Under the pieces are notes generated by a model that made no database searches, was not told the origin of the DNA, and was given only the letters and a program-made list of their open reading frames with translations. Positions 2,257 to 64,000 of a stretch of 64,000 bases of DNA are shown piece after piece (the first letter of the stretch is position 1; every line of letters begins with the position of its first letter). The DNA is taken from assembly GCF_012163145.1 (NCBI RefSeq), contig NZ_JAAVTX010000006.1, positions 607,192 to 671,191 on the forward strand. The letters are read 5' to 3'. The position numbers and the translations under genes were made by a program. Source of the stretch: Falsiroseomonas frigidaquae. GTDB lineage: Bacteria > Pseudomonadota > Alphaproteobacteria > Acetobacterales > Acetobacteraceae.

Positions 2257-3623
2257 TGCAGGGGCCGCGCGTGCCGCGCCGCGCCGTGCTCGCCCTGCCG
2301 GCGGGCCTCGTCGCGCCGCCTGCGGCCCGCGCCGACACGGCACTGACCGGCGCGGACGCGCTGCTGCTGGTCCTCAGCGACCTGCACTCCGCCATGGAAC
2401 GTGCCGCCGCCATGCTCGGCGCCATGGATGCCGTGCTGGCGGCGAATCGCGGCGTGCCGGCCTTCATCCTGCTGAATGGCGATGTGTTCGAGCGGGGCAA
2501 TGCGGTCGCGCTTCGCAGCGACGGGGCGGCGGATTGGGCCTTCCTCGCCGCGCTGCGCCGTCGCGCGCCGGTGGTGCTGAACATCGGCAACCACGAGACG
2601 GCGCTGATCGACGATTTGGCGGAGGTGGTGGCGCGCGCCCGTGCGCTGGATCTGCGCGTCGTCTCCAACCTGCGCGACTGGCGCACCGGCCTGCCCTTCG
2701 CGGAAGTCTCCGCCGGCTTTCGCCTGCCGGACAAGCGGCGGTTGCGTGTCGTCGGCCTGGCCACCGACGCGGCCGCCACCTACCGCGCCCCCGCCCGCGC
2801 GCTGATCGACATGCCGGAGCCGGTGGCCTGGGCGCGCGAACGCCTGCACGGCCTGTTCGCGGAGGCCGAGGCGCGGGTGCTGCTGAGCCATGCCGGCGTC
2901 GCCGCGGATCGTGCCATCCTGCCGCTGCTGCCCGGCGGCACGCTGCTGGTGGGCGGGCATGAGCATCTGCGCTTCGCCCATGCGGAAGGCGCCACGCGCT
3001 ACCTGCATTGCGGATCCTGGAACCGCGCGCTGACCGTGGTCGGGCTGGGCCTCGGCGGTCCCACGCCGCAGATCAAGGTGCGGGAAGTGGCGGTGGAGCC
3101 GGGCCAGGCGGAGGATGCCGCCCATGCCGCCCTGGTGCGGCAGGTCACGTCCGACCATCTGGCGCCGGAGGATGCGGAGGTGCTGTTCCACCTGCCCGCC
3201 CCCCTGCCCCTGCCGCAGGCCGCGCGCGCCGCCTGCGCCGCGCTGGCGCGCGCCACCGGCAGCCGGGCCGGGCTGCTCGGCCATACCGGCTTCGGCACCG
3301 GCCTGCCGGGCGGGCCCGTGCGGCGGCTGGATTTCGACGCCTTCCTGCGCTTCGACGGACCGGTGTTTCGCGGCAACGCCGACCTCGCAGCGCTGGCCAG
3401 CATGGCGCCGCGGCTGAACCAGGATGAGGCGGTGCCCCTGGCGGGACGTATCGGCGACTACGCCTATGTCGACCAGCTGCCGCGCCAGCCCGCCCTGCTG
3501 GCCAGCAATGGCTGGGTGCGGATGAACGCGGCGCATTTCCTGGGCGCCGCCGCGCCGCGCTTCGATGCGGTTCCGGATCTGGCACTGAAATCGCTGGTGG
3601 CGGCGGCGCTGGCTCGGCGCTGA
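2256..3623 (+). CDS. Exported metallophosphoesterase / 5'-nucleotidase-like protein
   Basis: A 455-residue protein with an N-terminal RR-containing leader (PRVPRRAVLALPAG, cleavage likely after AARA), so it is probably periplasmic and perhaps Tat-exported. The metallophosphoesterase metal motifs appear in order: SDLHS (residues 41-45), NGD (74-76), GNHE (111-114), SHAG and GGHEH (about 233-237). The C-terminal half, with LGHTGFGTGLPGG and a late RIGDYAYVDQLP stretch, resembles the C-terminal domain of UshA-type 5'-nucleotidases, but that is a weaker call. The substrate is probably a nucleotide or sugar phosphate. Its ATG shares a base with the stop of the CBS-BON gene. Confidence 0.82.
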   Translation: MQGPRVPRRAVLALPAGLVAPPAARADTALTGADALLLVLSDLHSAMERAAAMLGAMDAVLAANRGVPAFILLNGDVFERGNAVALRSDGAADWAFLAALRRRAPVVLNIGNHETALIDDLAEVVARARALDLRVVSNLRDWRTGLPFAEVSAGFRLPDKRRLRVVGLATDAAATYRAPARALIDMPEPVAWARERLHGLFAEAEARVLLSHAGVAADRAILPLLPGGTLLVGGHEHLRFAHAEGATRYLHCGSWNRALTVVGLGLGGPTPQIKVREVAVEPGQAEDAAHAALVRQVTSDHLAPEDAEVLFHLPAPLPLPQAARAACAALARATGSRAGLLGHTGFGTGLPGGPVRRLDFDAFLRFDGPVFRGNADLAALASMAPRLNQDEAVPLAGRIGDYAYVDQLPRQPALLASNGWVRMNAAHFLGAAAPRFDAVPDLALKSLVAAALARR

Positions 3624-41117: not shown

Positions 41118-41178
41118 GTGCCTCGACCCGCTTGACCCTTGGGCTAGCTTGCCACCCAGAAATCAAGAGGAGGTGGCC

Positions 41179-43770
41179 ATGGCGACGTTGATCGGCGGTG
41201 AGGCAGCGGAATTGCTGGCGCCCGATTCCGGCACCGAGGCCGATGTGCTGTTCGGCATGGGCGGGGCGGATACGCTGCTCGGCGGGCTCGGGGCGGACCT
41301 GCTCTCGGGCGGCGCCGGCAATGACCTGCTCGAAGGTGGCCGCGGCGCGGACCGCCTGAGCGGCGGCGAGGGCGCGGACAGCTTCCGCTTCCGCAGCCTT
41401 GCCGAACTGGCCGGCGACAGCATCGGCGATTTCACCGGCGATGACCGCCTGGTCTTCGACTTCGCCACCAGTTGGCGCCTGCTGGGCGCGGCGCCGTTCA
41501 GCGGCGCCGGCCAGGAGATCCGCTTCACCATCGTCACCACCAGTCTCGGCTCCTCGACCCGGCTGGAATTCGATGCCGACGGAAGCGGGGCCGCGCCGCT
41601 GGTGCTGACCCTCGCCGGCCAGCATGACTTCGCTCTGACCGCGCCCGGCGTGCTCGGCAAGGTGATGCCGCTCGATCGCCTGGGCACCAGCGCCAACGAG
41701 GTGATGAACGGCACGGCGGCGGCCGATACGCTGCTCGGCGCAGGCGGCAACGATATCCTGCGCGGCGGCGATGGCGCCGACTGGCTGCATGGCGGCGCCG
41801 GCAACGACACGCTGCGCGGCGGCAACGGCGCGGACACGCTCTCCGGCGGCGTCGGCGCCGACATCTTCATCTTCCCCCTGCTGTCGGAGGTGGATGGCGA
41901 CCTGATCCGCGACCTGCGGGCCGAGGATCTCTTGAACCTGTCCGGGCTCGCCGGCTTCACCTTCCTGGCCGATGCCGCCTTCAGCGGTCGGGCCGGCGAA
42001 TTCCGCTACAGCCTCGGCGGCGGCCAGGGTCGCCTCGAACTGGATCTCGATGGCGATGCGCTTGCCGATGCCAGCCTGACGCTGGCCGGCCTTACCGGCC
42101 CGCTGGTGCAGGTCGCGCCCGGCAGCCTGCTCCTGCGGACCGGCGGCCGCACCGACCTGCAGGGCTCGGAGGCGGCGGAGACGCTGGAAGGCGGACAGGG
42201 GGCCGACAGCCTGATGGGGCTGGGCGGCGCCGACCTGCTCCGCGGCGGCGCCTTCCGCGATACGCTGGATGGTGGTGCAGGGGCGGATACGCTGGAGGGC
42301 GGCAGCGGCGATGACCAGCTGCGCGGCGGGGCCGATGCCGATCTGCTGCGCGGTGGCGAGGGCGCCGATACGCTGTTCGGCGGCGACGGCGACGACACGC
42401 TGGTCGGCGGCCTCGGCGCCGACAGCCTGCTGGGCGGCGAAGGCGCCAACTACTTCGTCTTCGGCTCCATCGCCGAGCTGGACGGCGACTGGCTGGGTCC
42501 GACGGGCTGGCAGGACCGCATCGACCTCTCGGCCCTGTCCGGCTTCCGCTTCCTCGGCGAGGCGAATTTCGACGGGCTGCCGGGCGCCATCGTGCAGACC
42601 AGCCTCGGGCTGCTGTTCGACCTGGATGGCGATGGCCAGGCGGATGTGACGCTCCGCCTGGAGGCGCCGCTGCAGGAGACCGCGCCGGGCAGCCTGGTGC
42701 TGCAATTCGTCCAGGGCCACTGGATGTTCGGCGACGACGTGGCGGAGACGCTCATCGGCGGCGCCGGCAGGGATACGCTGCAGGGCAATGGCGGGGCGGA
42801 CCTGCTGCTGGGCGGCGCCGCCGGTGACACGCTGCGCGGCGGCGACGGCGCCGACACGCTGCTTGGCGGCAGCGGGATCGATGTGCTGGACGGCGGCGAT
42901 GGCGACGACGTGCTGATCGGCGGGCTGGGTGCGGAGGGCATGGTCGGCGGCGCCGGGGCGGACCGCTTCGTGTTCGGTTCGGTGGAGGAGCTTGGCTGGG
43001 ACCCGGCCCTGCACCGCTTCACCGGCCGCGACTGGATCGGCGGGCTGGACTTCGACGATGTGATCGATCTCTCCGGTATTCCCGGCCTGCGTGTGGTGCA
43101 GGCCTTCACCGGGCAGGCGGGCGAGGTGCTGATCACGCCGGATGCGCTGGTCGTCGACCTCGACGGCGTTGCGCTGGAGACGCCGCTCGCCGAGTTGCCC
43201 GGTCTCTACACGGCACTGGGGGGTTCGCCCGACAGCGCCGATCTCGCCGAGACCAGCCCCGGCAGCCTGCTGTTCCAGCGCCAACCGCTTCTCGTCACCG
43301 GAACGGAGGGCAACGATTCGCTGTCCGTCGCGGGTGAGCGCAGCGTGGTTCGCGGCCTTGGTGGCGACGACACTGTGTACATTCGCGGCAGCGGTCGCCG
43401 CGATACGGTGGAAGGCGGCGAAGGGCAGGACGCCTTCCACGTGCAATGGCAGGGCACCCTAAGTGCCGCAATCACCGATCTCGAGGTTGGCGAGACCGTG
43501 ACGATGGTGGGGGACTACCAATTCTCATGGTACCTCCCGACCCTGCAGTTCCGCGGAGAATCCGCATTCACCGGCGAAGTTCCCGAGATCCGGCTGGCGC
43601 GCGATGTCTGGGTGGATGGCAGCTTCCTGCAGACGGCGCTGCTGGTGAACAGCTATGGCGACACTGCGCCCGAGACGGTGCTGGACCTCAACGGCTTCGC
43701 AGGCACGCTGCTGCTTGAGGAGAACAGCGCCTTCGCCACCACCTTCCGCGCCGCCGACCTGGTGCTGTAG
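41179..43770 (+). CDS. RTX/hemolysin-type calcium-binding repeat protein
   Basis: An 863-residue acidic protein built from blocks of RTX nonapeptides (GGxGxDxLx). Four clusters can be seen, near residues 25-70, 185-235, 330-430 and 525-610. A less regular repeat occurs near 710-760. Between the clusters lie about 100-residue beta-rich linkers that recur with an AELDGD-type turn and LxLDGDGxAD calcium loops. No signal peptide is present; such proteins are normally exported by type I secretion with a C-terminal signal, and the tail is short and hydrophobic. AAGAGGAGG precedes the ATG at 41179. No transporter genes are nearby. Likely a surface or secreted protein of unknown target. Confidence 0.85.
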
Positions 43771-50342: not shown

Positions 50343-51218
50343 GTGCGGCATGTGCAGTTGGCACTCAGGGTGTCCGAGCGCCGCGCCTGCCGCACGCTGG
50401 GCCAGCCGCGGTCGACGCAGCGCAGGGTGCGGGTGGTGTCGTCCGACGAGGTCGCGCTGACCGAGGCGGTGGTGTCGCTTGCGGCGAAGTACGGCCGCTA
50501 CGGCTATCGCCGGATCACGGCGCTGCTGCGGGCCGAGGGCTGGCGTGTAAACGCCAAGCGCGTGGAGCGCATCTGGCGGCGCGAGGGGCTGAAGGTGCCG
50601 CGGCGGCAGCCGAAGCGGGGCCGACTGTGGCTGAACGACGGCTCCTGCGTTCGGCTGCGGCCGTGCTGGCCGGGGCATGTCTGGGCGTATGACTTCGTGC
50701 AGGACCGGACGCATGACGGGCGGCGCTTTCGCATGCTGACGGTGATCGACGAATACACGCGGGAGTGCCTGGCGATCGTGGTGGCGCGGCGGCTGACGTC
50801 GGACGACGTGCTGCAGGTGCTGACGGATCTGTTTGTCGAACGTGGGCCGCCTGGGCACATCCGCTCCGACAACGGGCCGGAGTTCGTGGCGAAGGTGGTG
50901 TGCAGCTGGCTCGGCCAGGTCGGGGTGACGACGCTGTTCATCGAGCCCGGCAGCCCCTGGGAGAACGGCTACAACGAGAGCTTCAACGGCAAGCTGCGGG
51001 ACGAGCTGCTGGACCGAGAGATCTTCTATTCGCTGCGGGAGGCTGAGGTGCTGATCGAGCGCTGGCGGCGCCACTACAACACGGTCAGGCCGCACAGCGC
51101 GCTGGGCTATCGGCCGCCGGCGCCGGAAGCGGTGTTGCCCTGGCCGGCTGGCCCCGACTACGCTCCGCTCCGGCAGGGCCAGCCGGCCAGGCCAGAACAC
51201 GGGCCAAGTCTCTCATAG
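50343..51218 (+). CDS. IS3-family transposase OrfB (DDE integrase)
   Basis: A 291-residue integrase-type transposase subunit, intact in itself. The helix-turn-helix-like region reads [19 protein letters not shown], followed by the rve core with [19 protein letters not shown] (first Asp), [13 protein letters not shown] (second Asp) and [18 protein letters not shown] (Glu). [15 protein letters not shown] closes it, as in IS407-group proteins. It starts with GTG and would normally be made as an OrfAB fusion by a -1 shift from orfA; since orfA is broken, the fusion cannot be made. Confidence 0.92.
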
Positions 51219-51660: not shown

Positions 51661-52740
51661 CTATGACTCGATGGAAATCACCCGGCGGATCTCGGCGGAG
51701 CGGAAGCCGATGACCGAGGGCCGCGCCTTCGGCAGCACCGCGACATCGTACAACTCGCTGACCACGCCGGAGATGCGCAGCCAGTGCACGACATCGCCGG
51801 TGGCGAGGTCGATGACGCAGAGGCCGCAGCGCGGCGTGGCCTTCTCCGCCTCCAGCCGCTCCTGCAACGGCAGTCCCGCGAAGGTGCGGTTCTCCCGCGG
51901 CTCGGACAGGCCGACAATAGCATGGCCGCCGATGAAGGCGAGGCCGCGCAGATAGCCGGGGCAGAAGGCCATCGGCTCGAACCGGCCCGAGTCCCGATTC
52001 ACCCGCCCGAACTCGCCGGCGCCGGAGTTCAGCACATAGAGGCTGTCCCTGTACCAGCGCGGTGAATGCGGCATGGACAGGCCGGTGCAGACCGCGGCAC
52101 CGCTGGCCACATCCAGCACCACGCCGCCGCCACGGCGATGGTCCCGCCAGCCATCCGCGATATTGGTGGCGGCGACGGCGGTCACATAGGCGGGCCTACC
52201 ATCCTTCATCGCCAACCCGTTCAGATGGCAGCGATCCTCCGCCGCCAGCCGGTCGATGAAGGGCGGCTTCCAGAGCGGTCGGAAGGAATGGGTCTCGCTG
52301 GTGGTGGACAGGCAGGAGAACAGCGTGTTGACGCAGACCAGCCGGCCCTCGGCGTCATAGGCCATGTCGTGCAGGTCCAGGTCGCCGGTGAAGCTGGCGG
52401 TCTGCGGCACATAGACCGCATCCCAGCCCCCCTCCACGCGCGGCCCGTCCGGCACCACCGCATCGACGAAGCTGGTGACCTGGTACAGCCCGCCCACCGC
52501 CATGCGGTTGCCCGACACGGCGATGCCCATCGGCCGTTCCAGCGTGCGCTCGAAGATCGAGAGCCGGTCGGTGTCCCGGTTGCTGCCCAGCAGGATCAGC
52601 TTGCCGGACTGGTAGGTGGACAGCGCCAGGCTCGCCCCGCTCTCCGCCAGCCAGGAGGTGAAGAGGCGGGAGGTGGTGACTTCGAAGCGCGGCTCGGCGG
52701 CCGCCTCAGCCTGCTGGCTCTCGGTGCTCATGCTGTCCAT
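51661..52740 (-). CDS. TIGR03032-like protein of unknown function
   Basis: A 359-residue protein resembling the uncharacterised TIGR03032 family (DUF4915-like). It is built of repeated short strands and looks like a six- or seven-bladed beta-propeller. Visible elements are FTSWLAESGASLALSTYQSGKLILLG near the N-terminus, LDLHDMAYDAEGRLVCVNTLFSCLST, LNGLAMKDGRPAYVTAVAATN, LSMPHSPRWY and GAGEFGRVNRDSGRFEPMAFCPGYLRGLAF. No signal peptide or membrane helix is present. The ATG at 52740 was chosen; TTG at 52752 or ATG at 52731 are possible. It starts within a few bases of the giant protein's stop, so the two are co-transcribed and probably functionally linked. Confidence 0.75.
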   Translation of the reverse strand: MDSMSTESQQAEAAAEPRFEVTTSRLFTSWLAESGASLALSTYQSGKLILLGSNRDTDRLSIFERTLERPMGIAVSGNRMAVGGLYQVTSFVDAVVPDGPRVEGGWDAVYVPQTASFTGDLDLHDMAYDAEGRLVCVNTLFSCLSTTSETHSFRPLWKPPFIDRLAAEDRCHLNGLAMKDGRPAYVTAVAATNIADGWRDHRRGGGVVLDVASGAAVCTGLSMPHSPRWYRDSLYVLNSGAGEFGRVNRDSGRFEPMAFCPGYLRGLAFIGGHAIVGLSEPRENRTFAGLPLQERLEAEKATPRCGLCVIDLATGDVVHWLRISGVVSELYDVAVLPKARPSVIGFRSAEIRRVISIES

Positions 52741-52744
52741 CTGT

Positions 52745-55700
52745 TCAGACAATCAGATCGTCGATGATGATGCTGGCGCTGTTGTGGATGGCCAGCACCG
52801 CGAGGTCGTTCACGCCATCCGACAGCGCCCAGTAGTCATAGGCGCCGCCATCCTGCCCACCCAGGGTCTGGTCCTGCTCGATCAGGGTCCAGTCCCGCAC
52901 CAGGGTCGGCTGGTCAGCGACACCCTCATACAGGCGGATCGTGCTGGTCGCATTGCCGTCGATCACCAGGCGATGCGCCGCATCCGCCCCGGTGAAGCCG
53001 GCATGCGGCGTGTCGGTCAGCGCCATCACATCCTGCGCGCTCAGGCCCAGCGTGGCGCCCGTGGCGATGGCAAGGTTGAAGGCCTCGATGCCGGAAAGAC
53101 GCGTCTCCGGGATCGTGGTCAGGTCGATGGCCAGGCCGTCCTGATCGAAGACGATGGTATCTACGCCATTGCCACCCGACAGGCGGAAGAAATCGGCCGC
53201 GGCCGAGGACAGCAGCAGCAGGTCATCCCCGGCCCCGCCCAGCAGCACCGCGCCGGCATGCTCCGCCATCAGAATGTCGTTCCCAGCCCCGCCGGCCAGC
53301 GTCGTGGAGGCGCCGCCGGTCGCCCGGATGACGCTCTGGACACTGCCGCCGAAGGCGCCGCCATAGACGATGTAGGTCTGGCCGGATTCCGCCGCCGTCC
53401 CATTCGCATATTGTGCGCCGACGAACAGGTCGTCGAAGCCATCCGCGTTCACATCGCCGGCGGCACTGACCACACGGCCGAACTGGTCGCCATTCGCCTC
53501 GCCGAGAAGGCGGAAGCCGTTCTCCGGCGCGAGGGTGGCCAGGTCGATCACCTGGCGCCCATCGACCGCGGTGCCGAAGCCGTCCGCGCCGCCGAAGATC
53601 ACATAGGCATCGCCGCTGCCATCCGGGCCACCGTATCGGGAGCCGATGATGAGATCCTCGAAGCCGTCGCCATTCACGTCGCCGGCCGCGGCCAACCCGA
53701 AGCCGAGCAGCGCGTCCGCATCCTGCCCCTGGATGACGAAGCCCTGCGCGCCGCTCAGCGTCGTCAGGTCGAGCACCTGGCGGCCATCGACCAGCGTGCC
53801 GAAGGCGCCCCCGCCGCCGAACACCACATAGCTGTTGCCCACCTGGTTGCTGCCAGCGCGATCGCCCCGATAGCCGCTGACGATGAGATCATCGAAGCCG
53901 TCGCCATTGATATCGCTCAGGGCGAGGATGGAGCCGGTCACATCCTGGAGCTCATCCCCCAGCACGACGAAGCCCTGCGCCGGTGCCAGCGTCGCGAGGT
54001 CGAGCACCTGCTGTCCGCCGGATGGGCTGCCCGGGCTGCCCTCCTGCCCGAAGACGACATACATCGCACCGGCGAAGCCCGCGGCGAGGCCGCTGAGCGG
54101 CGCGCCCAGCACCAGGTCCGGCCTGCCATCGCCATTGATGTCGCCGCCCCCCAGGACGGCCGAGCCGATGTTCCCGAACTCGCCGCCCATGATGAAACCC
54201 TGCGCCGGGGACAAGGTGCCAAGGTCCAGCACCTGCCGCCCGTCCACCGTGCTGCCGAACCCGGAAGCGCTGCCGAAGACGACGACGCCCGTATTGGTAC
54301 CGCGGACGCCCACCAGCAGGTCGTCCAGGCCATCCCCATTCACGTCGCCGATGCCGGAAACACCGGAGCCGGCCGCGCCATCCGGCACATTGCCTTCGAT
54401 GATGAAGCCCTGTGCCGGAGTCAGGTCCGTCAGGTCGATCACCCGCCGCCCGCCGACCAGCGTGCCGAAGCCCTCGGTCGTGCCAAAGATGACATAGGCC
54501 GCGCCGGCATTCTCGCCGCCGCCATCCGCGCCGATGGCCCCCATGATCAGGTCGTCGATGCCATCGCCATTCACGTCGCCGGCAGAAGCGGCGCTGTTGC
54601 CGAATTCGCCGAGATTTTCGTCGCCCAGCACGAGGAAACCCTGCCCGGCGTCCAGATCGATCAGGTCGAAGACCTGGCGGCCATCCTCGCCGCGGCGGCT
54701 CGATCCCGCAGGGCCGCCGAACAGGACATAGGCCGCGCCGCTGCCGCCACTGCCTCGGGCGGCCAGGACGCTGTCCTGGTAGCCGTCGGCGTTCAGGTCC
54801 CCCACCAGGGAGATGGCCGAGCCCAATTGGTGGCCCAGGCCCTCCCCGCGGATGACGAGGCCCTGATCCGGGGTCAGCGTGGCGGCGGAGATCGCCGCAT
54901 CGCCCCCGGGGAAGGCGCGTGTCACCGCCGCGGCCACGCGGATTTCCGCGCTGCCATCGGTCGAGACCTGCCGCGTATAGGTGACGCCGCCGATGTCGAT
55001 GGTACCGGCATTGCCCCATTGCGCTTCCGTCAGGCGCAGGGTGTCGCCGGCATTGCCGTCCACCATGAGGATGGCCACGCCATCCACGCGCTGCTCCGTC
55101 AGGCCGAGCACCGCCAGGCGGTCCAGCACCAGCGTGTTGCCGCCCGAGCCGGTCAGGTCGATGCGTTCCACGCTGCCGATGCGCGGCGCCGGCACCGTGG
55201 TCAGGTCGAGCGTCAGGGCGTTGCCGGACAGCGCCAGCGTGTCCGTGCCGTTGCCGCCCTCGACCACGCGGAAGCCAGCATCCGCCGCGATCAGCAGGTC
55301 GTCGCCCGCGCCACCGCGCAGCACGTCCAACCCACCGCCGCCCGTCAGCGTGTCGTCGCCGATGCCACCGACCAGCATCTCCGCCGCCACCGTGCCCACG
55401 GTCGTCACCGGATCGAAGGACGCGCCGAAGGCGCCGCCGAACAGGATATAGGCCTCGCCGGCATCGTTGCCCGGCGCGCCCACCATCAGGTCGTCATAGC
55501 CATCCCCGTTCACATCGCCCGCCGAGGACACGCTGGTGCCAGCCAGGGCGATCGCCGCGTCGCCCTGGATGATGAAGCCCTGCGCCGCGGCCAGTTCCGA
55601 CAGGTCGATCACCTGCCGCCCGCCGACATCCACCCCGAAGCCGGAGGCCGTGCCGAACACCACATAGGCCTCGCCGGCAAGATTGCCGCCATCATCGCCG

Positions 55701-58700
55701 TAACGCGCGCCGACGATCAGGTCATCGAACCCGTCGCCATTCACATCGCCTGCCGAGGATACGCTGCCGCCCAACCGGTCGCCGGCCGCGTCGCCCTGGA
55801 TGATGAAGCCCAGCGTCGCGCCCAGCGTCGTCAGGTCGATCACCTGCCGCCCGCCGACATCCACCCCGAAGCCGGAGGCCGTGCCGAACACCACATAGGC
55901 CTCGCCCGCAAAGGCGCCCCCATCAGAACCATACTTGGCACCAACGATCAGGTCGTCGAAGCCATCCCCGTTCACGTCGCCTGCCGAGGACAAGCTGAAG
56001 CCCAACTGGTCGGCAGCCGAATCACCCTGGATAACGAAGCCCTGGGCCGCAGTCAGCGTCGCCAGGTCGATGATCTGCCGCCCGCCGCCATCCACACCGA
56101 AGCCGGCCGCTGTCCCGAACACCACATAGGCCTCGCCGGTGTAGCCATCACCGGCATTGGTCGCACCGACGATGAGATCCGCGAAGCCATCGCCATTCAC
56201 ATCCCCGGCCGAGGACACACTGGCACCAGCGCGATTGCCTGCTTCGCTGCCCTGGATGACGAAACCTTGCGTCGCGTCCAGCGACGCCACGTCGATCACC
56301 TGGCGTCCCCCGATATCCACACCGAAGCCAGAGGCGCCGCCAAAGACGACATAGGCCTCGCCTGCGCCATAGGCACCAAGATCGCCATTCGCAGCACCGA
56401 CGATCAGATCCGCGAAACCATCGCCATTCACGTCCCCAGCCGAGGACACGCTGTTGCCCGTGTGATCATACGCAGCGGCACCCTGGATGACGAAGCCCTG
56501 CGCCGCATCCAGCGTCGCCAGGTCGATCACCTGCCGCCCGTCAACCTCCGCGCCGAAGCCGGACGCCGTGCCGAAGACCACATAGGCCGTGCCCGCCCTT
56601 GGAGCGCCACCGGTGGAATACATGGCACCGACGATCAGATCGACGAAGCCATCGCCGTTCACATCGCCGGCCGAGGAAACGCTGTAGCCTGTACGATCAA
56701 TCGCCGCGGCACCCTGGATGATGAAGCCCTGCGCCGCGTCCAGGGTAGCGACGTCGATCACCTGTCGTCCGCCGACATCCACGCCGAAGCCCGATGCCGT
56801 GCCGAACACCACATAGGCCTCGCCGGCATAGGTTGCACTGCCGAGCTGTGGCGCGCCGAGGATGACATCGGCGAAGCCATCGCCATTCACATCCCCGGCG
56901 AAGGAGACACTGAAGCCGGCATCGCCATCGTCGATAGCGCCCCGAATGATGAAGCCCTGCGCCGCATCCAGCGCCGCCAGGTCGATCACTGGCGCAGGCG
57001 GCACGAAGAACTCGACAGTCACCGCCGCGGCCACGCGGATTTCCGCGCTGCCATCGGTCGAGACCAGCCGCGTATAGGTCACGCCACCGATATCGACGGT
57101 GCCCGCGCTGGCCCAGATGGCCTCCGTCAGTTCCAGCGTATCGCCGGCATCGCCATCCACCGTGAGGATGGCAACGCCATCCACGCGCTGCTCTGTCAGG
57201 CCCAGCACCGCCAGGCGGTCCAGCACCAGCGTGTTGTTGCCCGAACCGGTCAGGTCGATGGCTTCCACGCTCGCGATCCGCGGTGCCGGCACCGTGGTCA
57301 GGTCCAGCGTGATGCCGTTGCCGGACAGCGCCAGCGTATCCGTGCCGTTGCCGCCCTCGACCACGCGGAAGCCCGAATCCGCCGCGATCAGCAGGTCGTC
57401 GCCCGCGCCACCGCGCAGCACGTCCAGCCCGCCGCCGCCCGTCAGCGTATCGTCGCCGATGCCACCGATCAGCATCTCCGCCGCCGCCGTGCCCACGGTC
57501 GTCACCGGATCGGCGGACGCCCCGAAGGCACCGCCAAACAGGATATAGGCCTCGCCGGCAGCATCACCTCCATCATCGCCCCGCGGCGCGCCGACCATCA
57601 AATCATCATAACCATCGCCGTTCACGTCGCCGGCCGAGGACACGCCCCGGCCCGCACGATCGCCAGCCATGTCCCCCTGTATGATGAAGCCCTGCGCTTC
57701 ACCCAGATCCGTCAGGTCAATCACCTGACGTCCACCCACATCCACGCCGAAGCCACTTGCCCCACCGAAGAGGATATAGGCCCTGCCAGAATCCTCGTCG
57801 CCGGCGCCGTAGGCACCGACAATGAGATCGGCGAAGCCGTCGCCATTCACATCTCCGGCCGAGGACACGGATGCGCCGAGGATATCGTACGCGACATCAC
57901 CCTGGATGACGAAACCCTCATCCGCCGCGAGATCCGCCAGATCGATCACCGGCCGGCCCGTGCCAGTGGCACGGCCGAACAGCACATAGGCCTCTCCTGC
58001 ATAGGTGCCACCATCAGCGCCACCCGGTGCGCCGATGACGACATCATCGTAACCATCGCCATCGACATCGCCCGCGGAATGTACCGAGATGCCGGTCTGG
58101 TCGCCGGCCGCGTCACCCTGGATTCTCCACCCGTCAGCAGCCGAAAGATTGGCGAGGTCCGGCATGCTGGCAAAGCCCCCGGCCTTGCCGAGCAGGATAT
58201 AGGCGGCACCTGCTTCGGAAGCGCCTGAGTCGTCAAACGTCGCCCCGATGATGATGTCATCGAAGCCATCGCCATTGACGTCACCGGCAAAACTTGTACC
58301 GGTCCCAAATCGGTCACTATTGGATATACCGCCCATCGCAAAGCCTTGCGACCCGCTGAGGCTGCCGAGATCGAGCACCTGGCGCCCGCCTTCCGCCACG
58401 CCAAATCCAGACGCCGCGCCGAACAGGACATATGCAAGGCCGCGGTCTGCCGTGTAGGTCTGCGGTGCGCCGACCAGCAGATCCGCGAAGCCGTCGCCGT
58501 TGATGTCGCCACCACCAGAGACGCTCCCGCCAGCACGATCATTCGCCGAGCCGCCACGCAGGATGAAGCCCTGCGAGGCTGACAAATTGGACAGGTCCAC
58601 CAACTGCCGTCCATCGACAAGGCTGCCAAACCCATCCGCCGAGCCGAAGACGATATAGGCTTCCCCCGCAAAACTCCCGCCACCGGACGCCCGGAATGAC

Positions 58701-61700
58701 CCGAGGATAAGGTCCGCAAAGCCATCGCCATTGACATCGCCTGCGGAGGACACGCTGCGGCCCATCTGATCGCCAGGGACGTCACCTCGGATGACGAAGC
58801 CCTCCGCAGGTGACAGGCTTCTTGCGTCGACGACCTGCCGCCCTGCGCCGTCGGCGACGCCAAATCCATCACGGCGGCCGAACACCACATAGGCCTCGCC
58901 GTGATTGCCGGCGCCTCCATAGGCGCCAACAATCATGTCGGCGATGCCATCACCATTGACATCGCCGGCCGAGGAGACGGAGGTTCCAGTACGGTCGAAG
59001 TCAGCTTCGCCCTGGATGATGAAGCCCTGCGCCGCGTCCAGCGTCGTCACGTCGATCACCGGAGCGGGTGGCACAAAGGAGCCCACCGTCACCGCCGCCG
59101 CCACACGGATTTCCGCGCTGCCATCGGACGAAACCAGCCGCGTATAGGTCACGCCGCCAATGTCCATCGTGCCGGCGCTGGCCCATTGCGCTTCCGTCAG
59201 GCGCAGCGTGTCGCCGGCATTGCCGTCCACCATGAGGATGGCCACGCCATCCACGCGCTGTTCCGTCAGGCCGAGCACCGCCAGGCGGTCCAGCACCAGC
59301 GTGTTATTGCCCGAACCGGTCAGGTCGATGCGTTCCACGCTGCCGATGCGCGGCGCCGGCACCGTGGTCAGGTCCAGCGTCAGCGTGTTGCCGGACAGCG
59401 CCAGCGTATCGGTGCCGTTGCCGCCCTCCACCACGCGGAAGCCAGCATCCGCCGCGATCAGCAGGTCGTCGCCCCCGCCACCGCGCAGCACGTCCAGCCC
59501 GCCGCCGCCGGTCAGCGTGTCGTCGCCGATGCCGCCGATCAGCATCTCCGCCGCCGCCGTGCCCACGGTCGTCACCGGATCGGAGGACGCGCCGAAGGCG
59601 CCGCCGAACAGGATATAGGCCTCGCCGGCATCGTTGCCGGGCGCGCCCACCATCAGATCGTCATAGCCATCCCCGTTCACGTCGCCCGCCGAGGACACGC
59701 TGGCGCCAGCCTGGGCGAAGGCCGCGTCACCCTGGATGATGAAGCCCTGCGCCGCGCCCAGTTCCGACAGGTCGATCACCTGTCGCCCGCCGACATCCAC
59801 GCCGAAGCCCGATGCCGTGCCGAACACCACATAGGCCTCGCCGCCATCATCGCCGTAGCGCGCGCCGACGATCAGGTCATCGAACCCGTCGCCATTCACA
59901 TCGCCTGCCGAGGATACGCTGCGGCCCAACCGATCGCCGGCCGCGTCGCCCTGGATGATGAAGCCCTGCGCCGCGCCCAGCGTCGCCAGGTCGATCACCT
60001 GCCGCCCACCGACATCCACCCCGAAGCCGGAGGCCGTGCCGAACACCACATAGGCCTTGCCCGCAGAGGAGCCCCCGTCACGATCATATTCGGCACCAAC
60101 GATCAGGTCGTCGAAGCCATCCCCATTCACGTCGCCTGCCGAGGACACGCCGCGGCCCAGATTGTCGGCAGCCGAATCAGCCTGGATGACGAAGCCCTGT
60201 GCCGCAGTCAGCGTCGCCAGGTCGATGATCTGCCGCCCGCCGCCATCCACACCGAAGCCGGCCGCCGTGCCGAACACCACATAGGCCTCGCCGTTTTCGC
60301 CTTGACCGGCGAAGGGCACACCGACGATGAGATCAGCGAAGCCATCGCCATTCACATCACCGGCCGAGGACACACTGGCACCGGCGCCACCGCTTGGTTC
60401 GCTGCCCTGGATGACGAAGCCTTGCGTCGCGTCCAGCGACGCCACGTCGATCACCTGGCGGCCCCCAATATCCACACCGAAGCCCGCGGCGCCGCCGAGG
60501 ACCACATAGGCCTCGCCGGCGAAGTAGCCATTAACATCGCTAGCCGCGGCACCGACGATCAGATCAGCGAAACCATCACCATTCACGTCCCCGACCGAGG
60601 ACACGCTGTTGCCCGCACGATGACCCGCCGCGGCACCCTGGATGACGAAGCCCTGCGCCGCATCCAGCGTGGCGAGGTCGATCACCTGCCGCCCGTCAAC
60701 CTCCGCGCCGAAGCCGGACGCCGTGCCGAAGACCACATAGGCCGTGCCCGCCCTTGGAGCGCCACCGGTGGAATACATGGCACCGACGATCAGATCGACG
60801 AAGCCATCGCCGTTCACATCGCCGGCCGAGGAAACGCTGTAGCCTGTACGATCAATCGCCGCGGCACCCTGGATGATGAAGCCCTGCGCCGCGTCCAGGG
60901 TAGCGACGTCGATCACCTGCCGTCCGCCGACATCCACGCCGAAGCCCGATGCCGTGCCGAACACCACATAGGCCTCGCCGGCATAGGTTGCACTGCCGAG
61001 CTGTGGCGCGCCGAGGATGACATCGGCGAAGCCATCGCCATTCACATCACCGGCGAAGGAGACACTGAAGCCGGCATTGCCATCGTCGATAGCGCCGCGG
61101 ATGATGAAGCCCTGCGCCGCATCCATCGCCGCGAGGTCGATCACCGGCGCCGGCGGCACGAAGAACTCCACGGTCACCGCCGCGGCCACGCGGATTTCCG
61201 CGCTGCCATCGGCCGAGACCAGCCGCGTATAGGTGACACCGCCGATATCGACGGTGCCGGCGCTGGCCCAGCCCAGCTCCGCCAGTTCCAGCCTATCGCC
61301 GGCATTGCCATCCACCGTCACGATGGCCACGCCACCCACGCGCTGCTCCGTCAGCCCGAGCACCGCCAGCCGGTCCAGCATCAGCGTGTTGTCGCCAAAG
61401 CTCGTCAGGTCAATGCGTTCCACGCTGGCGATCCGCGGTGCGGGTACACCTGTCAGGTCGAGGGTGATGCCACTGCCCGACAATGCCACCGTATCCGTGC
61501 CGGTGCCGCCATCGATCGCCAGGAAGTTGGCATCGGCGACGCGCAGCAGGTCGTCCCCTGCCCCGCCCCGCAGCACATCGGCGCCGCCGCCACCGGACAG
61601 CGTATCGTCACCGCGGCCGCCAACATGGCTCCCGGGCAATGTGTCGCCAGCGTCATCGACCGGGACGGAATCGCCCCCGAAGGCACCACCGAACAGGACA

Positions 61701-64000
61701 TAGGCTTCACCCGACTCAGGCTGGCCGAGGCTGCCATAGGCGCCGCCGATCAGCAGGTCGTCGAAGCCATCGCCATTCACATCGCCAGCGGCGACGACCG
61801 CGGTTGCGCCACTCGCCACCCGCAGCGCGAGGCCGCTATCGCCATGCAGATCGCTGAGGTCCACCACCTGGCGGCCATAGGCGTCGGTGACACCGAAGCC
61901 CGCATCGCTGCCGAACAGTACGAAGACATCGCCGGCCGGCTCGCAGCCGCAGGTGCTGAGCAGGATATCGGCAAAGCCATCGCCATTCACATCGCCGGCT
62001 TCGGAGATGCTGAGCCCGACCGTGATATCGTAGCTGGAGCCGCGCAGGACGAAGCCACGATCCGCCGTGAGCAGGTTGAGATCGAGCACCTGGCGGCCAT
62101 TGCCATCGAGATCGCCAAAATCCGCATCCCGGCCGAACACGACATAGACTTCGCCATATCCGTCGGAACTGGTGCCGCCGAAGGGCGAGGTGAGCATGAC
62201 GTCGTCGAAGCCATCGCCATTGACGTCACCGGCCGAGGATATCCGCAGGATCGGCACCTCATAACCGCCCGCGCCCCCGATGACGAAGCCCGCCGCCGGG
62301 CTCAGCGTTTCCGGATCGACGGAGGAGCGGCCGGCGAAATCGGGCGTGCCGGGCGTGGTCGCGCTGCCGAACAGCACATAGGCCCCGTCCAGCGGCGAGA
62401 AGACGATGATATCCGCGAAGCCGTCGCCATTGACGTCACCGGCCGAGTCCACCTGCAGACCAAGCGGGGCCGCGGGGTCGCCGCCGGCGACGACAAAGCC
62501 CTGCGATGGGGTCAGTTCCAGCAGGTTGAGCGTCGGGCGCCCGTCTCCGTCCAGGGCCGAGAGGCCGGAAGCGGCGCCGTAGATGACATAGACCTCACCG
62601 CCGACGCCGGCATAGTTGGTGCCGAGGATGACGTCGTCGAAGCCATCGCCGTTGACGTCACCGGCCGCCGCGATGCTGAGCATGCCGATGCCATAGGCGT
62701 CGTCCGCGCCATATGTGCCGCGGAGCTGGAAGCCCTGTTCCGCGGTCAGCGCATCCAGATCCACCACCTGGCGGCCCGCGCCGTCGGTCGCGCCAAAGCC
62801 TGATCCGCTTCCGAAGACCAGATAGGCGACACCCAGGTTCGGGTTGGCCGTATCCGTGAAGCGGGCGCTGATGATGAGATCCGCAAAGCCGTCGCCATTC
62901 ACATCACCCGCGGAGGAGACGGCAAAGCCGGTGAGCGCATCGGCACCCTGGGCACGCAGCACGAAGCCCTCGGTGGGCGTCAGCGCCGCGACATCCAGGA
63001 TCTGCCGTCCTTCGGCATCTGTGGTGCCGAAACCATCTCTGCTGCCAAGGATGACATAGGCCTCGCCTGTGCCGCCATTCGCGGCGGGAGCTCCAACGAT
63101 GAGATCGGCGACGCCATCGCCGTTCACGTCACCCAGACCGCTGACGGAGAAGCCCAGAAGATCGCCGGTCGTGCCGCCGACGACGATGAACCCTTCGCTC
63201 GCCGTCAGTTGTTCAACATCCGTCGCGTCATTCGCGCCGGTCACCGTCACCGTGATCGTTCGCGACGCCGTGCCGTCCACCGACGTCACCGTCAGCGTCT
63301 CGCTGACCTCCTCCCCCGCGGCCAAGCCCTGCGTCGCCGCAAGGCCGTTGTCCAGCGCGTAGCTCCACACGCCCGTCGACGCGTCAAAGCTGAATGCACC
63401 ATAGGTCCCGGACAGGTCCGCAGGCTCCGCAAAGCCGGCCTCGCCCGTGTCGGCATCGGACACGACCAGCGTCCCGCCGATCGTATCCGCGCTGTCCTCC
63501 GTCAGGCTCCCCGTCGCAGGCCCGCTGATGGCAGCGCCGTCATTCGCGCCCGTCACCGTCACCGTGATCGTCCGCGACGCCGTGCCGTCCACCGACGTCA
63601 CCGTCAGCGTCTCGCTGACCTCCTCCCCCGCCGCCAAGCCCTGCGTCGCCGCAAGGCCGTTGTCCAGCGCGTAGCTCCACACACCCGTCGATGCGTCGAA
63701 GCTGAATGCACCATAGGTCCTGGACAGGTCCGCAGGCTCCGCAAAGCCGGCCTCGTCGCCATCCGCATCCGTCGCGACCAGCGTCCCGCCGATCGTATCC
63801 GCGCTGTCCTCCGTCAGGCTCCCCGTCGCCGGGTCGCTGATGGCAGCGCCGTCATTCGCGCCCGTCACCGTCACCGTGATCGTCCGCGACGCCGTGCCAT
63901 CCACCGACGTCACCGTCAGCGTCTCGCTGACCTCCTCCCCCGCCGCCAAGCCCTGCGTCGCCGCAAGGCCGTTGTCCAGCGCGTAGCTCCACACGCCCGT
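52745..64000 (-). CDS. Giant VCBS/FG-GAP/RTX surface protein (N-terminus outside window)
   Basis: More than 3,750 residues are visible and the frame is open to the right edge, so the true protein is longer. From the N-terminal side: VCBS repeats of 104 residues (about 63230-64000), then five modules. Each module has seven FG-GAP repeats (GDVNGDGFADLIVGA with a calcium-binding DxNxDG loop) followed by an RTX-like block (GGIGDDTLTGGGGLDVLRGG). A linker ending in DRLAVLGLTEQRV plus a short strand region comes next. The C-terminal 200 residues are unique and end in a hydrophobic IIIDDLIV tail, as in type I-secreted proteins. It is probably an extracellular calcium-stabilised adhesin; the target is unknown. 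Confidence 0.88.
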   Translation of the reverse strand, partial: TGVWSYALDNGLAATQGLAAGEEVSETLTVTSVDGTASRTITVTVTGANDGAAISDPATGSLTEDSADTIGGTLVATDADGDEAGFAEPADLSRTYGAFSFDASTGVWSYALDNGLAATQGLAAGEEVSETLTVTSVDGTASRTITVTVTGANDGAAISGPATGSLTEDSADTIGGTLVVSDADTGEAGFAEPADLSGTYGAFSFDASTGVWSYALDNGLAATQGLAAGEEVSETLTVTSVDGTASRTITVTVTGANDATDVEQLTASEGFIVVGGTTGDLLGFSVSGLGDVNGDGVADLIVGAPAANGGTGEAYVILGSRDGFGTTDAEGRQILDVAALTPTEGFVLRAQGADALTGFAVSSAGDVNGDGFADLIISARFTDTANPNLGVAYLVFGSGSGFGATDGAGRQVVDLDALTAEQGFQLRGTYGADDAYGIGMLSIAAAGDVNGDGFDDVILGTNYAGVGGEVYVIYGAASGLSALDGDGRPTLNLLELTPSQGFVVAGGDPAAPLGLQVDSAGDVNGDGFADIIVFSPLDGAYVLFGSATTPGTPDFAGRSSVDPETLSPAAGFVIGGAGGYEVPILRISSAGDVNGDGFDDVMLTSPFGGTSSDGYGEVYVVFGRDADFGDLDGNGRQVLDLNLLTADRGFVLRGSSYDITVGLSISEAGDVNGDGFADILLSTCGCEPAGDVFVLFGSDAGFGVTDAYGRQVVDLSDLHGDSGLALRVASGATAVVAAGDVNGDGFDDLLIGGAYGSLGQPESGEAYVLFGGAFGGDSVPVDDAGDTLPGSHVGGRGDDTLSGGGGADVLRGGAGDDLLRVADANFLAIDGGTGTDTVALSGSGITLDLTGVPAPRIASVERIDLTSFGDNTLMLDRLAVLGLTEQRVGGVAIVTVDGNAGDRLELAELGWASAGTVDIGGVTYTRLVSADGSAEIRVAAAVTVEFFVPPAPVIDLAAMDAAQGFIIRGAIDDGNAGFSVSFAGDVNGDGFADVILGAPQLGSATYAGEAYVVFGTASGFGVDVGGRQVIDVATLDAAQGFIIQGAAAIDRTGYSVSSAGDVNGDGFVDLIVGAMYSTGGAPRAGTAYVVFGTASGFGAEVDGRQVIDLATLDAAQGFVIQGAAAGHRAGNSVSSVGDVNGDGFADLIVGAAASDVNGYFAGEAYVVLGGAAGFGVDIGGRQVIDVASLDATQGFVIQGSEPSGGAGASVSSAGDVNGDGFADLIVGVPFAGQGENGEAYVVFGTAAGFGVDGGGRQIIDLATLTAAQGFVIQADSAADNLGRGVSSAGDVNGDGFDDLIVGAEYDRDGGSSAGKAYVVFGTASGFGVDVGGRQVIDLATLGAAQGFIIQGDAAGDRLGRSVSSAGDVNGDGFDDLIVGARYGDDGGEAYVVFGTASGFGVDVGGRQVIDLSELGAAQGFIIQGDAAFAQAGASVSSAGDVNGDGYDDLMVGAPGNDAGEAYILFGGAFGASSDPVTTVGTAAAEMLIGGIGDDTLTGGGGLDVLRGGGGDDLLIAADAGFRVVEGGNGTDTLALSGNTLTLDLTTVPAPRIGSVERIDLTGSGNNTLVLDRLAVLGLTEQRVDGVAILMVDGNAGDTLRLTEAQWASAGTMDIGGVTYTRLVSSDGSAEIRVAAAVTVGSFVPPAPVIDVTTLDAAQGFIIQGEADFDRTGTSVSSAGDVNGDGIADMIVGAYGGAGNHGEAYVVFGRRDGFGVADGAGRQVVDARSLSPAEGFVIRGDVPGDQMGRSVSSAGDVNGDGFADLILGSFRASGGGSFAGEAYIVFGSADGFGSLVDGRQLVDLSNLSASQGFILRGGSANDRAGGSVSGGGDINGDGFADLLVGAPQTYTADRGLAYVLFGAASGFGVAEGGRQVLDLGSLSGSQGFAMGGISNSDRFGTGTSFAGDVNGDGFDDIIIGATFDDSGASEAGAAYILLGKAGGFASMPDLANLSAADGWRIQGDAAGDQTGISVHSAGDVDGDGYDDVVIGAPGGADGGTYAGEAYVLFGRATGTGRPVIDLADLAADEGFVIQGDVAYDILGASVSSAGDVNGDGFADLIVGAYGAGDEDSGRAYILFGGASGFGVDVGGRQVIDLTDLGEAQGFIIQGDMAGDRAGRGVSSAGDVNGDGYDDLMVGAPRGDDGGDAAGEAYILFGGAFGASADPVTTVGTAAAEMLIGGIGDDTLTGGGGLDVLRGGAGDDLLIAADSGFRVVEGGNGTDTLALSGNGITLDLTTVPAPRIASVEAIDLTGSGNNTLVLDRLAVLGLTEQRVDGVAILTVDGDAGDTLELTEAIWASAGTVDIGGVTYTRLVSTDGSAEIRVAAAVTVEFFVPPAPVIDLAALDAAQGFIIRGAIDDGDAGFSVSFAGDVNGDGFADVILGAPQLGSATYAGEAYVVFGTASGFGVDVGGRQVIDVATLDAAQGFIIQGAAAIDRTGYSVSSAGDVNGDGFVDLIVGAMYSTGGAPRAGTAYVVFGTASGFGAEVDGRQVIDLATLDAAQGFVIQGAAAYDHTGNSVSSAGDVNGDGFADLIVGAANGDLGAYGAGEAYVVFGGASGFGVDIGGRQVIDVASLDATQGFVIQGSEAGNRAGASVSSAGDVNGDGFADLIVGATNAGDGYTGEAYVVFGTAAGFGVDGGGRQIIDLATLTAAQGFVIQGDSAADQLGFSLSSAGDVNGDGFDDLIVGAKYGSDGGAFAGEAYVVFGTASGFGVDVGGRQVIDLTTLGATLGFIIQGDAAGDRLGGSVSSAGDVNGDGFDDLIVGARYGDDGGNLAGEAYVVFGTASGFGVDVGGRQVIDLSELAAAQGFIIQGDAAIALAGTSVSSAGDVNGDGYDDLMVGAPGNDAGEAYILFGGAFGASFDPVTTVGTVAAEMLVGGIGDDTLTGGGGLDVLRGGAGDDLLIAADAGFRVVEGGNGTDTLALSGNALTLDLTTVPAPRIGSVERIDLTGSGGNTLVLDRLAVLGLTEQRVDGVAILMVDGNAGDTLRLTEAQWGNAGTIDIGGVTYTRQVSTDGSAEIRVAAAVTRAFPGGDAAISAATLTPDQGLVIRGEGLGHQLGSAISLVGDLNADGYQDSVLAARGSGGSGAAYVLFGGPAGSSRRGEDGRQVFDLIDLDAGQGFLVLGDENLGEFGNSAASAGDVNGDGIDDLIMGAIGADGGGENAGAAYVIFGTTEGFGTLVGGRRVIDLTDLTPAQGFIIEGNVPDGAAGSGVSGIGDVNGDGLDDLLVGVRGTNTGVVVFGSASGFGSTVDGRQVLDLGTLSPAQGFIMGGEFGNIGSAVLGGGDINGDGRPDLVLGAPLSGLAAGFAGAMYVVFGQEGSPGSPSGGQQVLDLATLAPAQGFVVLGDELQDVTGSILALSDINGDGFDDLIVSGYRGDRAGSNQVGNSYVVFGGGGAFGTLVDGRQVLDLTTLSGAQGFVIQGQDADALLGFGLAAAGDVNGDGFEDLIIGSRYGGPDGSGDAYVIFGGADGFGTAVDGRQVIDLATLAPENGFRLLGEANGDQFGRVVSAAGDVNADGFDDLFVGAQYANGTAAESGQTYIVYGGAFGGSVQSVIRATGGASTTLAGGAGNDILMAEHAGAVLLGGAGDDLLLLSSAAADFFRLSGGNGVDTIVFDQDGLAIDLTTIPETRLSGIEAFNLAIATGATLGLSAQDVMALTDTPHAGFTGADAAHRLVIDGNATSTIRLYEGVADQPTLVRDWTLIEQDQTLGGQDGGAYDYWALSDGVNDLAVLAIHNSASIIIDDLIV
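54990..57100 (-). repeat. Module copy A of the giant gene
   Basis: Roughly 2.1 kb holding the fourth set of seven FG-GAP repeats and its RTX block. It is near-identical to 59157-61255, with long stretches of matching DNA at an offset of 4,155 bp (for example around 56621 and 56862). The boundaries are approximate. Confidence 0.8.
59157..61255 (-). repeat. Module copy B of the giant gene
   Basis: Holds the second set of seven FG-GAP repeats and its RTX block, matching 54990-57100. The offset shifts from 4,155 to 4,167 bp toward the C-terminal end, showing small indels of whole codons. The boundaries are approximate. Confidence 0.8.
63231..64000 (-). repeat. Tandem 312-bp VCBS repeats
   Basis: The segment beginning TTCGCGCC recurs at 63231, 63543 and 63855, exactly 312 bp apart. 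The units are nearly identical and encode 104-residue VCBS domains (TVTGANDGAAIS, LTEDSADTIGGTL, VWSYALDNGLAATQGL). The array runs off the right edge. Confidence 0.93.

Follow-up and report, generated by a model that had tools for sequence, protein, structure and literature searches.

Integrin-type propellers are known from bacteria. In the main text of Chouhan 2011 (PMC3192720) they consist of seven FG-GAP repeats, every blade bearing a calcium loop, and two such sets per protein are given for Rhodobacterales HTCC 2654. Likewise, the text of Rigden 2011 (PMC3123361) assigns three tandem seven-bladed calcium propellers to Npun_R4253 of Nostoc punctiforme. A passage of PMC3789753 describes Bap1, a biofilm matrix protein of Vibrio cholerae, in which four FG-GAP repeats are combined with two VCBS domains. 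Here we describe a giant gene in a 64,000-nucleotide stretch of the Falsiroseomonas frigidaquae genome (contig NZ_JAAVTX010000006.1, positions 607,192 to 671,191; hereafter the window). As in the Chouhan propellers, each of its sets has seven FG-GAP repeats and one calcium loop per blade; unlike those proteins and Npun_R4253, it carries five sets, and these have RTX tails. The minus-strand frame (52745-64000) runs for 3751 codons without a stop, and the contig (C16) ends at window base 64,000, so that the start codon and the N-terminal end of the gene lie beyond it.

An earlier note on this DNA, made from the letters alone, had counted 35 calcium loops in five groups of seven, and three approaches agree with that count. 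The motif D[VIL][ND][GA]DG occurs 35 times, grouped 7+7+7+7+7; Pfam FG-GAP matches the protein in 35 stretches (E 1.5e-228); and a hidden Markov model (HMM) made from the 35 blades finds 35 domains of 65-108 bits each. A Dx[DN]xDG loop is present in every blade (35/35), with one loop starting SD rather than GD. The loops are spaced 68-82 residues apart within sets and 239-245 residues from set to set, and the modules of propeller plus linker recur, by motif spacing, every 690-698 residues, close to the period of about 690 that had been proposed. With the blades masked, the remainder of the protein (VCBS part, four linkers and C-terminus) gives at most 0.4 bits, so that a degenerate eighth blade is not detectable and the blade number comes out equal in all five sets. 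Within the source genome, all 35 FG-GAP matches at E ≤ 0.01 belong to this gene.

The VCBS domains expected ahead of the propellers are also present (TIGR01965, three stretches). Pfam families above cut-off in the 3751 residues are FG-GAP, FG-GAP_3 and HemolysinCabind only, and PF00353 recognizes the GGxGxDxLx nonapeptides of the RTX blocks in four stretches, its 49.5 bits (E 3.9e-13) lying above the cut-off of 23. Each set does end in an RTX block, as the note had it, but the blocks are not identical: the text varies, with GGGGDDLL in set 2 and GGAGNDIL in set 5 where GGxGDDTL was claimed, and the LDRLAVLGL element, assigned to every set, is found in four of the five.

The predicted structure of module 3 is confident and matches integrin alpha heads, the model forming a closed propeller fold of that type. 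Pfam gives no integrin domain besides FG-GAP, and thus neither the thigh nor the calf domains of integrin alpha. The proposed build, a row of five integrin-type propellers of seven blades each with RTX parts connecting them, has sequence support in all five cases and, for module 3 alone, that of the model as well.

Scanning 84,980 species genomes with the join from blade 7 through RTX to blade 1 as the query gave at least 584 pattern matches, with 372 relatives among the matches listed; the best 80 of these 372 were kept as 78 loci. The unit of seven blades plus RTX turns up in many bacteria, including many Proteobacteria and some Planctomycetes and cyanobacteria, and these relatives lead us to reject the idea that the architecture is unique to this gene. 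Counted at the DNA level, dropping blades below 10 bits, one-blade sets and sets at locus edges, seven blades are found in 126 of 145 non-edge sets, and 67 of the 78 loci have at least one seven-bladed set. Counted by frame, seven blades are found in 124 of 167 untruncated sets and in 110 of the 133 with RTX behind, the remaining rows including sets split by a frame break (e.g. L057, 3+4). Because seven prevails across the relatives, the strict number is a matter of the fold and not of the giant gene alone. Proteins hold one to six blade groups by frame; four sets of seven occur in an Acetobacteraceae locus (L012) and in Limnohabitans (L078), three in a planctomycete (L031), and five is the highest number of RTX-followed sets in the sampled loci. 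The first sets of two Nitrosomonas loci (L019 and L061) have eight blades with eight calcium loops, and an alphaproteobacterial locus (L036) has an eight-blade set with seven calcium loops.

The RTX block and small domain that follow each set span 170-173 residues between sets and 197 residues at the end. An HMM made from the four internal linkers of the giant protein matches 62 of the 63 C-terminal tails, of any length, that come after a seven-bladed set in the relatives, the sole exception being L058. The median length is 175 residues for these 63 tails, 174 for the 31 tails of one-propeller proteins and 179.5 for 52 linkers in relatives. In a subset selected by length (tails of 120-260 residues, linkers of 150-250), in which likeness in length is a product of the selection, the HMM matches 46 of 47 tails and all 34 linkers, covering at least 80% of the model in 25 of the 47 tails versus 29 of the 34 linkers. 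It also matches residues 8-138 of the giant protein's own C-terminus (E 7.4e-22, one-sequence search). One-propeller proteins of 643-707 residues stand side by side in Nitrosomonas loci L037 and L054. Because the same tail closes one-propeller proteins in relatives, the internal linkers are best read as retained C-terminal tails, which fits the matches better than the plain spacers of the earlier note; this kinship, together with the one-propeller proteins, suggests that the giant consists of complete units fused head to tail.

The modules differ in their histories. Modules 2 and 4 share 93.1% DNA identity and are alike along their whole length, whereas the intervening module 3 shares 72-73% with each of the two, and module 5 is the most diverged. 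Among modules 1-3, identity in the propeller part is 43-75%, mostly 54-65%. Toward the linker end it is 74-93% for module 1 against modules 2 and 3 (last three 150-column windows) and 82-96% for module 2 against 3 (last five); the end of module 5, at 49-59% in the last three windows, is unlike these. In sets 1, 2 and 5 blade likeness is 0.44-0.51 at same and at other positions alike, and we reject position-wise inheritance of blades between these sets, while retaining it for sets 2 and 4. Likeness inside set 2 is 0.68 and inside set 4 is 0.70. Because likeness within a set exceeds likeness at the same position, blades seem to have been renewed inside each propeller, the number being kept at seven throughout. 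That propellers can arise by amplification of a single blade is already known, as passages of PMC9218822 describe.

We consider it fairly probable that the gene encodes a giant RTX protein, of at least 3751 residues, made of five fused units of propeller plus RTX tail, which is exported, stiffened by calcium and likely to serve as an adhesin or matrix protein. The protein is probably secreted. Type I substrates exit C-terminus first, and the folding of RTX repeats on calcium reportedly ratchets export (Bumba 2016). Given the order of propeller then RTX, each RTX block would emerge ahead of its own propeller. Export would thus proceed C-terminus first through a type I system coded elsewhere in the genome, with each RTX block leaving the channel before its propeller, binding calcium, folding and ratcheting the propeller out. 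Outside the cell, the chain may form a calcium-stiffened string of ligand-binding discs, for which an adhesin or matrix role is the most likely. Type I secretion genes are present in the source genome, with TIGR01843 over cut-off at three places and TIGR01842 at one, on contigs C17, C14 and C13. If this reading is correct, bacteria assemble giant surface proteins from whole secreted units in fused form, each unit keeping a calcium-driven tail for its export and having the fold found in animal integrin heads, and the relatives offer a natural series of one to five units for testing how several very large discs pass through one type I channel.

A number of observations weigh against this reading. 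The structure model covers module 3, one of the five, and its Foldseek matches to integrin entries have TM-scores of 0.36-0.39 by the length of the model, which holds both linkers, and a root-mean-square deviation of 5-9 Å. Secretion, calcium binding and adhesion are themselves predicted properties. No type I genes are found among the ten window neighbours (36.9-52.8 kb; the C5 side was not library-scanned), and just 5 of the 78 related loci have HlyD-like frames nearby. Judged by the coverage of the linker HMM in the length-selected subset, the last part of the tail, the presumed site of the secretion signal, is less conserved. Blade number departs from seven in 19 of the 145 sets, with two to six blades (six in L010, L024 and L065), eight in three sets (L019, L061 and L036) and 21 in one run. 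A Ponticaulis frame of 3558 residues (L083:5015-15688, plus strand) reads as five sets of seven and a weak sixth with no match to the RTX pattern, which indicates that a multi-propeller chain can do without RTX. Lastly, the present copy may be broken. A VCBS repeat stands at the start of contig C5, 91% identical to the query repeat and oriented as a continuation would be, and we infer that C5 and C16 join in one gene, perhaps with VCBS repeats lost in the gap. On C5, a frame of 654 residues is separated by one in-frame stop (L007:1963-1965) from an upstream frame of 268 residues rich in RTX-like repeats, with which the presumed N-terminal part would begin; the stop may be real or an assembly fault. 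This stop and the contig break inside the VCBS repeats are what would be expected of a decayed or misassembled copy, whose periodicity would then say little about function here. Nevertheless, 3751 codons are open, third-position guanine plus cytosine is 0.80 and 35 of 35 loops are intact, whereas decay of long standing should have left its marks all along a frame of this length; we therefore regard such a copy as improbable.

The RTX blocks could instead be calcium-stiffened spacers with no role in export, their alternation with propellers having arisen by duplication of a cassette of propeller plus spacer. The linker ends are more alike than the propellers among modules 1-3, which fits recombination at linkers, and RTX adhesins use linker calcium for stiffness according to passages of PMC7493085. 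However, in both family and length the linker is like the tail that closes one-propeller proteins, which is unexpected for a plain spacer, and we judge this explanation rather unlikely. That the protein is an RTX toxin, forming pores or acting as an enzyme and using its propellers to bind receptors, is very improbable: models of RTX toxins and serralysins do match, but far below cut-off (NF033943, 58.1 bits against 1000) and with their best stretches in or beside the RTX blocks, and among the Pfam and NCBIfam matches above cut-off in the 3751 residues there is no domain of catalytic, acylated or pore-forming type. The reading as fused, exported units of propeller and RTX tail is the one we retain. 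The features are listed below.

Features of the giant gene and its downstream neighbour (window coordinates)
Feature	Position	Strand	Residues of open frame	Basis or remark
VCBS repeats	63239..64000	-	1-254	TIGR01965; contig end falls inside a repeat
Propeller 1, seven FG-GAP blades	61670..63232	-	257-777	motif, Pfam, blade HMM
Linker 1, 173 residues, RTX block and small domain with LDRLAVLGL	61151..61669	-		motif, Pfam, linker HMM
Propeller 2, seven blades	59582..61150	-	951-1473	blade HMM, DNA alignment
Linker 2, 172 residues, RTX block and small domain	59066..59581	-		motif, model, linker HMM
Propeller 3, seven blades	57512..59065	-	1646-2163	structure modelled
Linker 3, 172 residues, RTX block and small domain	56996..57511	-		motif, model, linker HMM
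Propeller 4, seven blades	55418..56995	-	2336-2861	blade HMM, DNA alignment
Linker 4, 170 residues, RTX block and small domain	54908..55417	-		motif, linker HMM
Propeller 5, seven blades	53339..54907	-	3032-3554	blade HMM, DNA alignment
C-terminal RTX block and tail, 197 residues	52745..53338	-		kin of linkers 1-4; type I secretion signal presumed here
DUF4915 (PF16261) gene	51661..52752	-		directly downstream of the giant gene; candidate partner

On the plus strand, antisense open frames of 1870 residues (52616-58228) and 1300 residues (58901-62803) cover the repeats and are most likely by-products of the repeat codons.

The DUF4915 gene, the single match to this family in the source genome (435.8 bits against a curated cut-off of 35, E 1.2e-130), overlaps the giant gene by 8 nucleotides or is separated from it by 4, depending on the choice of start codon. 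The family adjoins giant frames of exported type in 19 of 47 loci, its neighbours, often a few bases off, being seven-bladed propeller-RTX chains, other calcium-repeat giants and autotransporters. In relatives at the genus and family level (L126-L129 and L131), it stands beside opposite-strand giants with RTX, DxDGDG or ELWxTDG repeats, which are apparently other propeller types. A seven-bladed set is found in 9 of the 47 DUF4915-centred loci and in none of the other 38, and we reject the family as an exclusive propeller partner. In some loci it lies next to a gene for an O-GlcNAc-transferase-like TPR/GT41 protein or a 2OG-Fe(II) oxygenase, as though the substrate underwent modification or were kept back ahead of its export. 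By sequence, no solved relative of DUF4915 is significant (best E 0.22). We put forward only tentatively, as a possibility more doubtful than not, that DUF4915 is a dedicated cytoplasmic partner or modifying enzyme of giant exported repeat proteins, the propeller chains among them leaving the cell one unit after another through the ratchet action of their RTX tails; if true, the link would be a first working hypothesis for this uncharacterized family. Beside the DUF4915 gene is an integrase core with HTH_21 (50343-51218, plus strand), which we take to be IS3-like, and about 9 kb from the giant gene lies a second RTX protein of 873 residues with 10 HemolysinCabind stretches (41149-43770, plus strand).

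The usual RTX adhesins have a single RTX region near the C-terminal end, and the giant too carries an RTX block at its C-terminus. LapA-type retained adhesins have an N-terminal retention module and a LapG site; in the giant, the presumed N-terminal part on C5 opens with RTX-like sequence. Propellers alternating with RTX tails were not found described in the open-access literature covered (titles, starts of abstracts and selected passages): the main text of PMC3123361 makes no mention of RTX, nor that of PMC3192720 of RTX or hemolysin, and a term search of an RTX protein review (PMC3034196) finds neither FG-GAP nor VCBS. The earlier note's view of an undescribed architecture is thus half right, in that tandem seven-bladed calcium propellers are already known with two or three per protein, while RTX alternation with five sets was not found described. 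Against the integrin alpha head, the giant differs in having a calcium loop in all seven blades and an RTX tail for each propeller. Like the beta-sandwich RTX adhesins in passages of PMC7493085, it is giant, repetitive and built from calcium-dependent tandem repeats; unlike theirs, its repeats are propellers, each with an RTX tail of its own.
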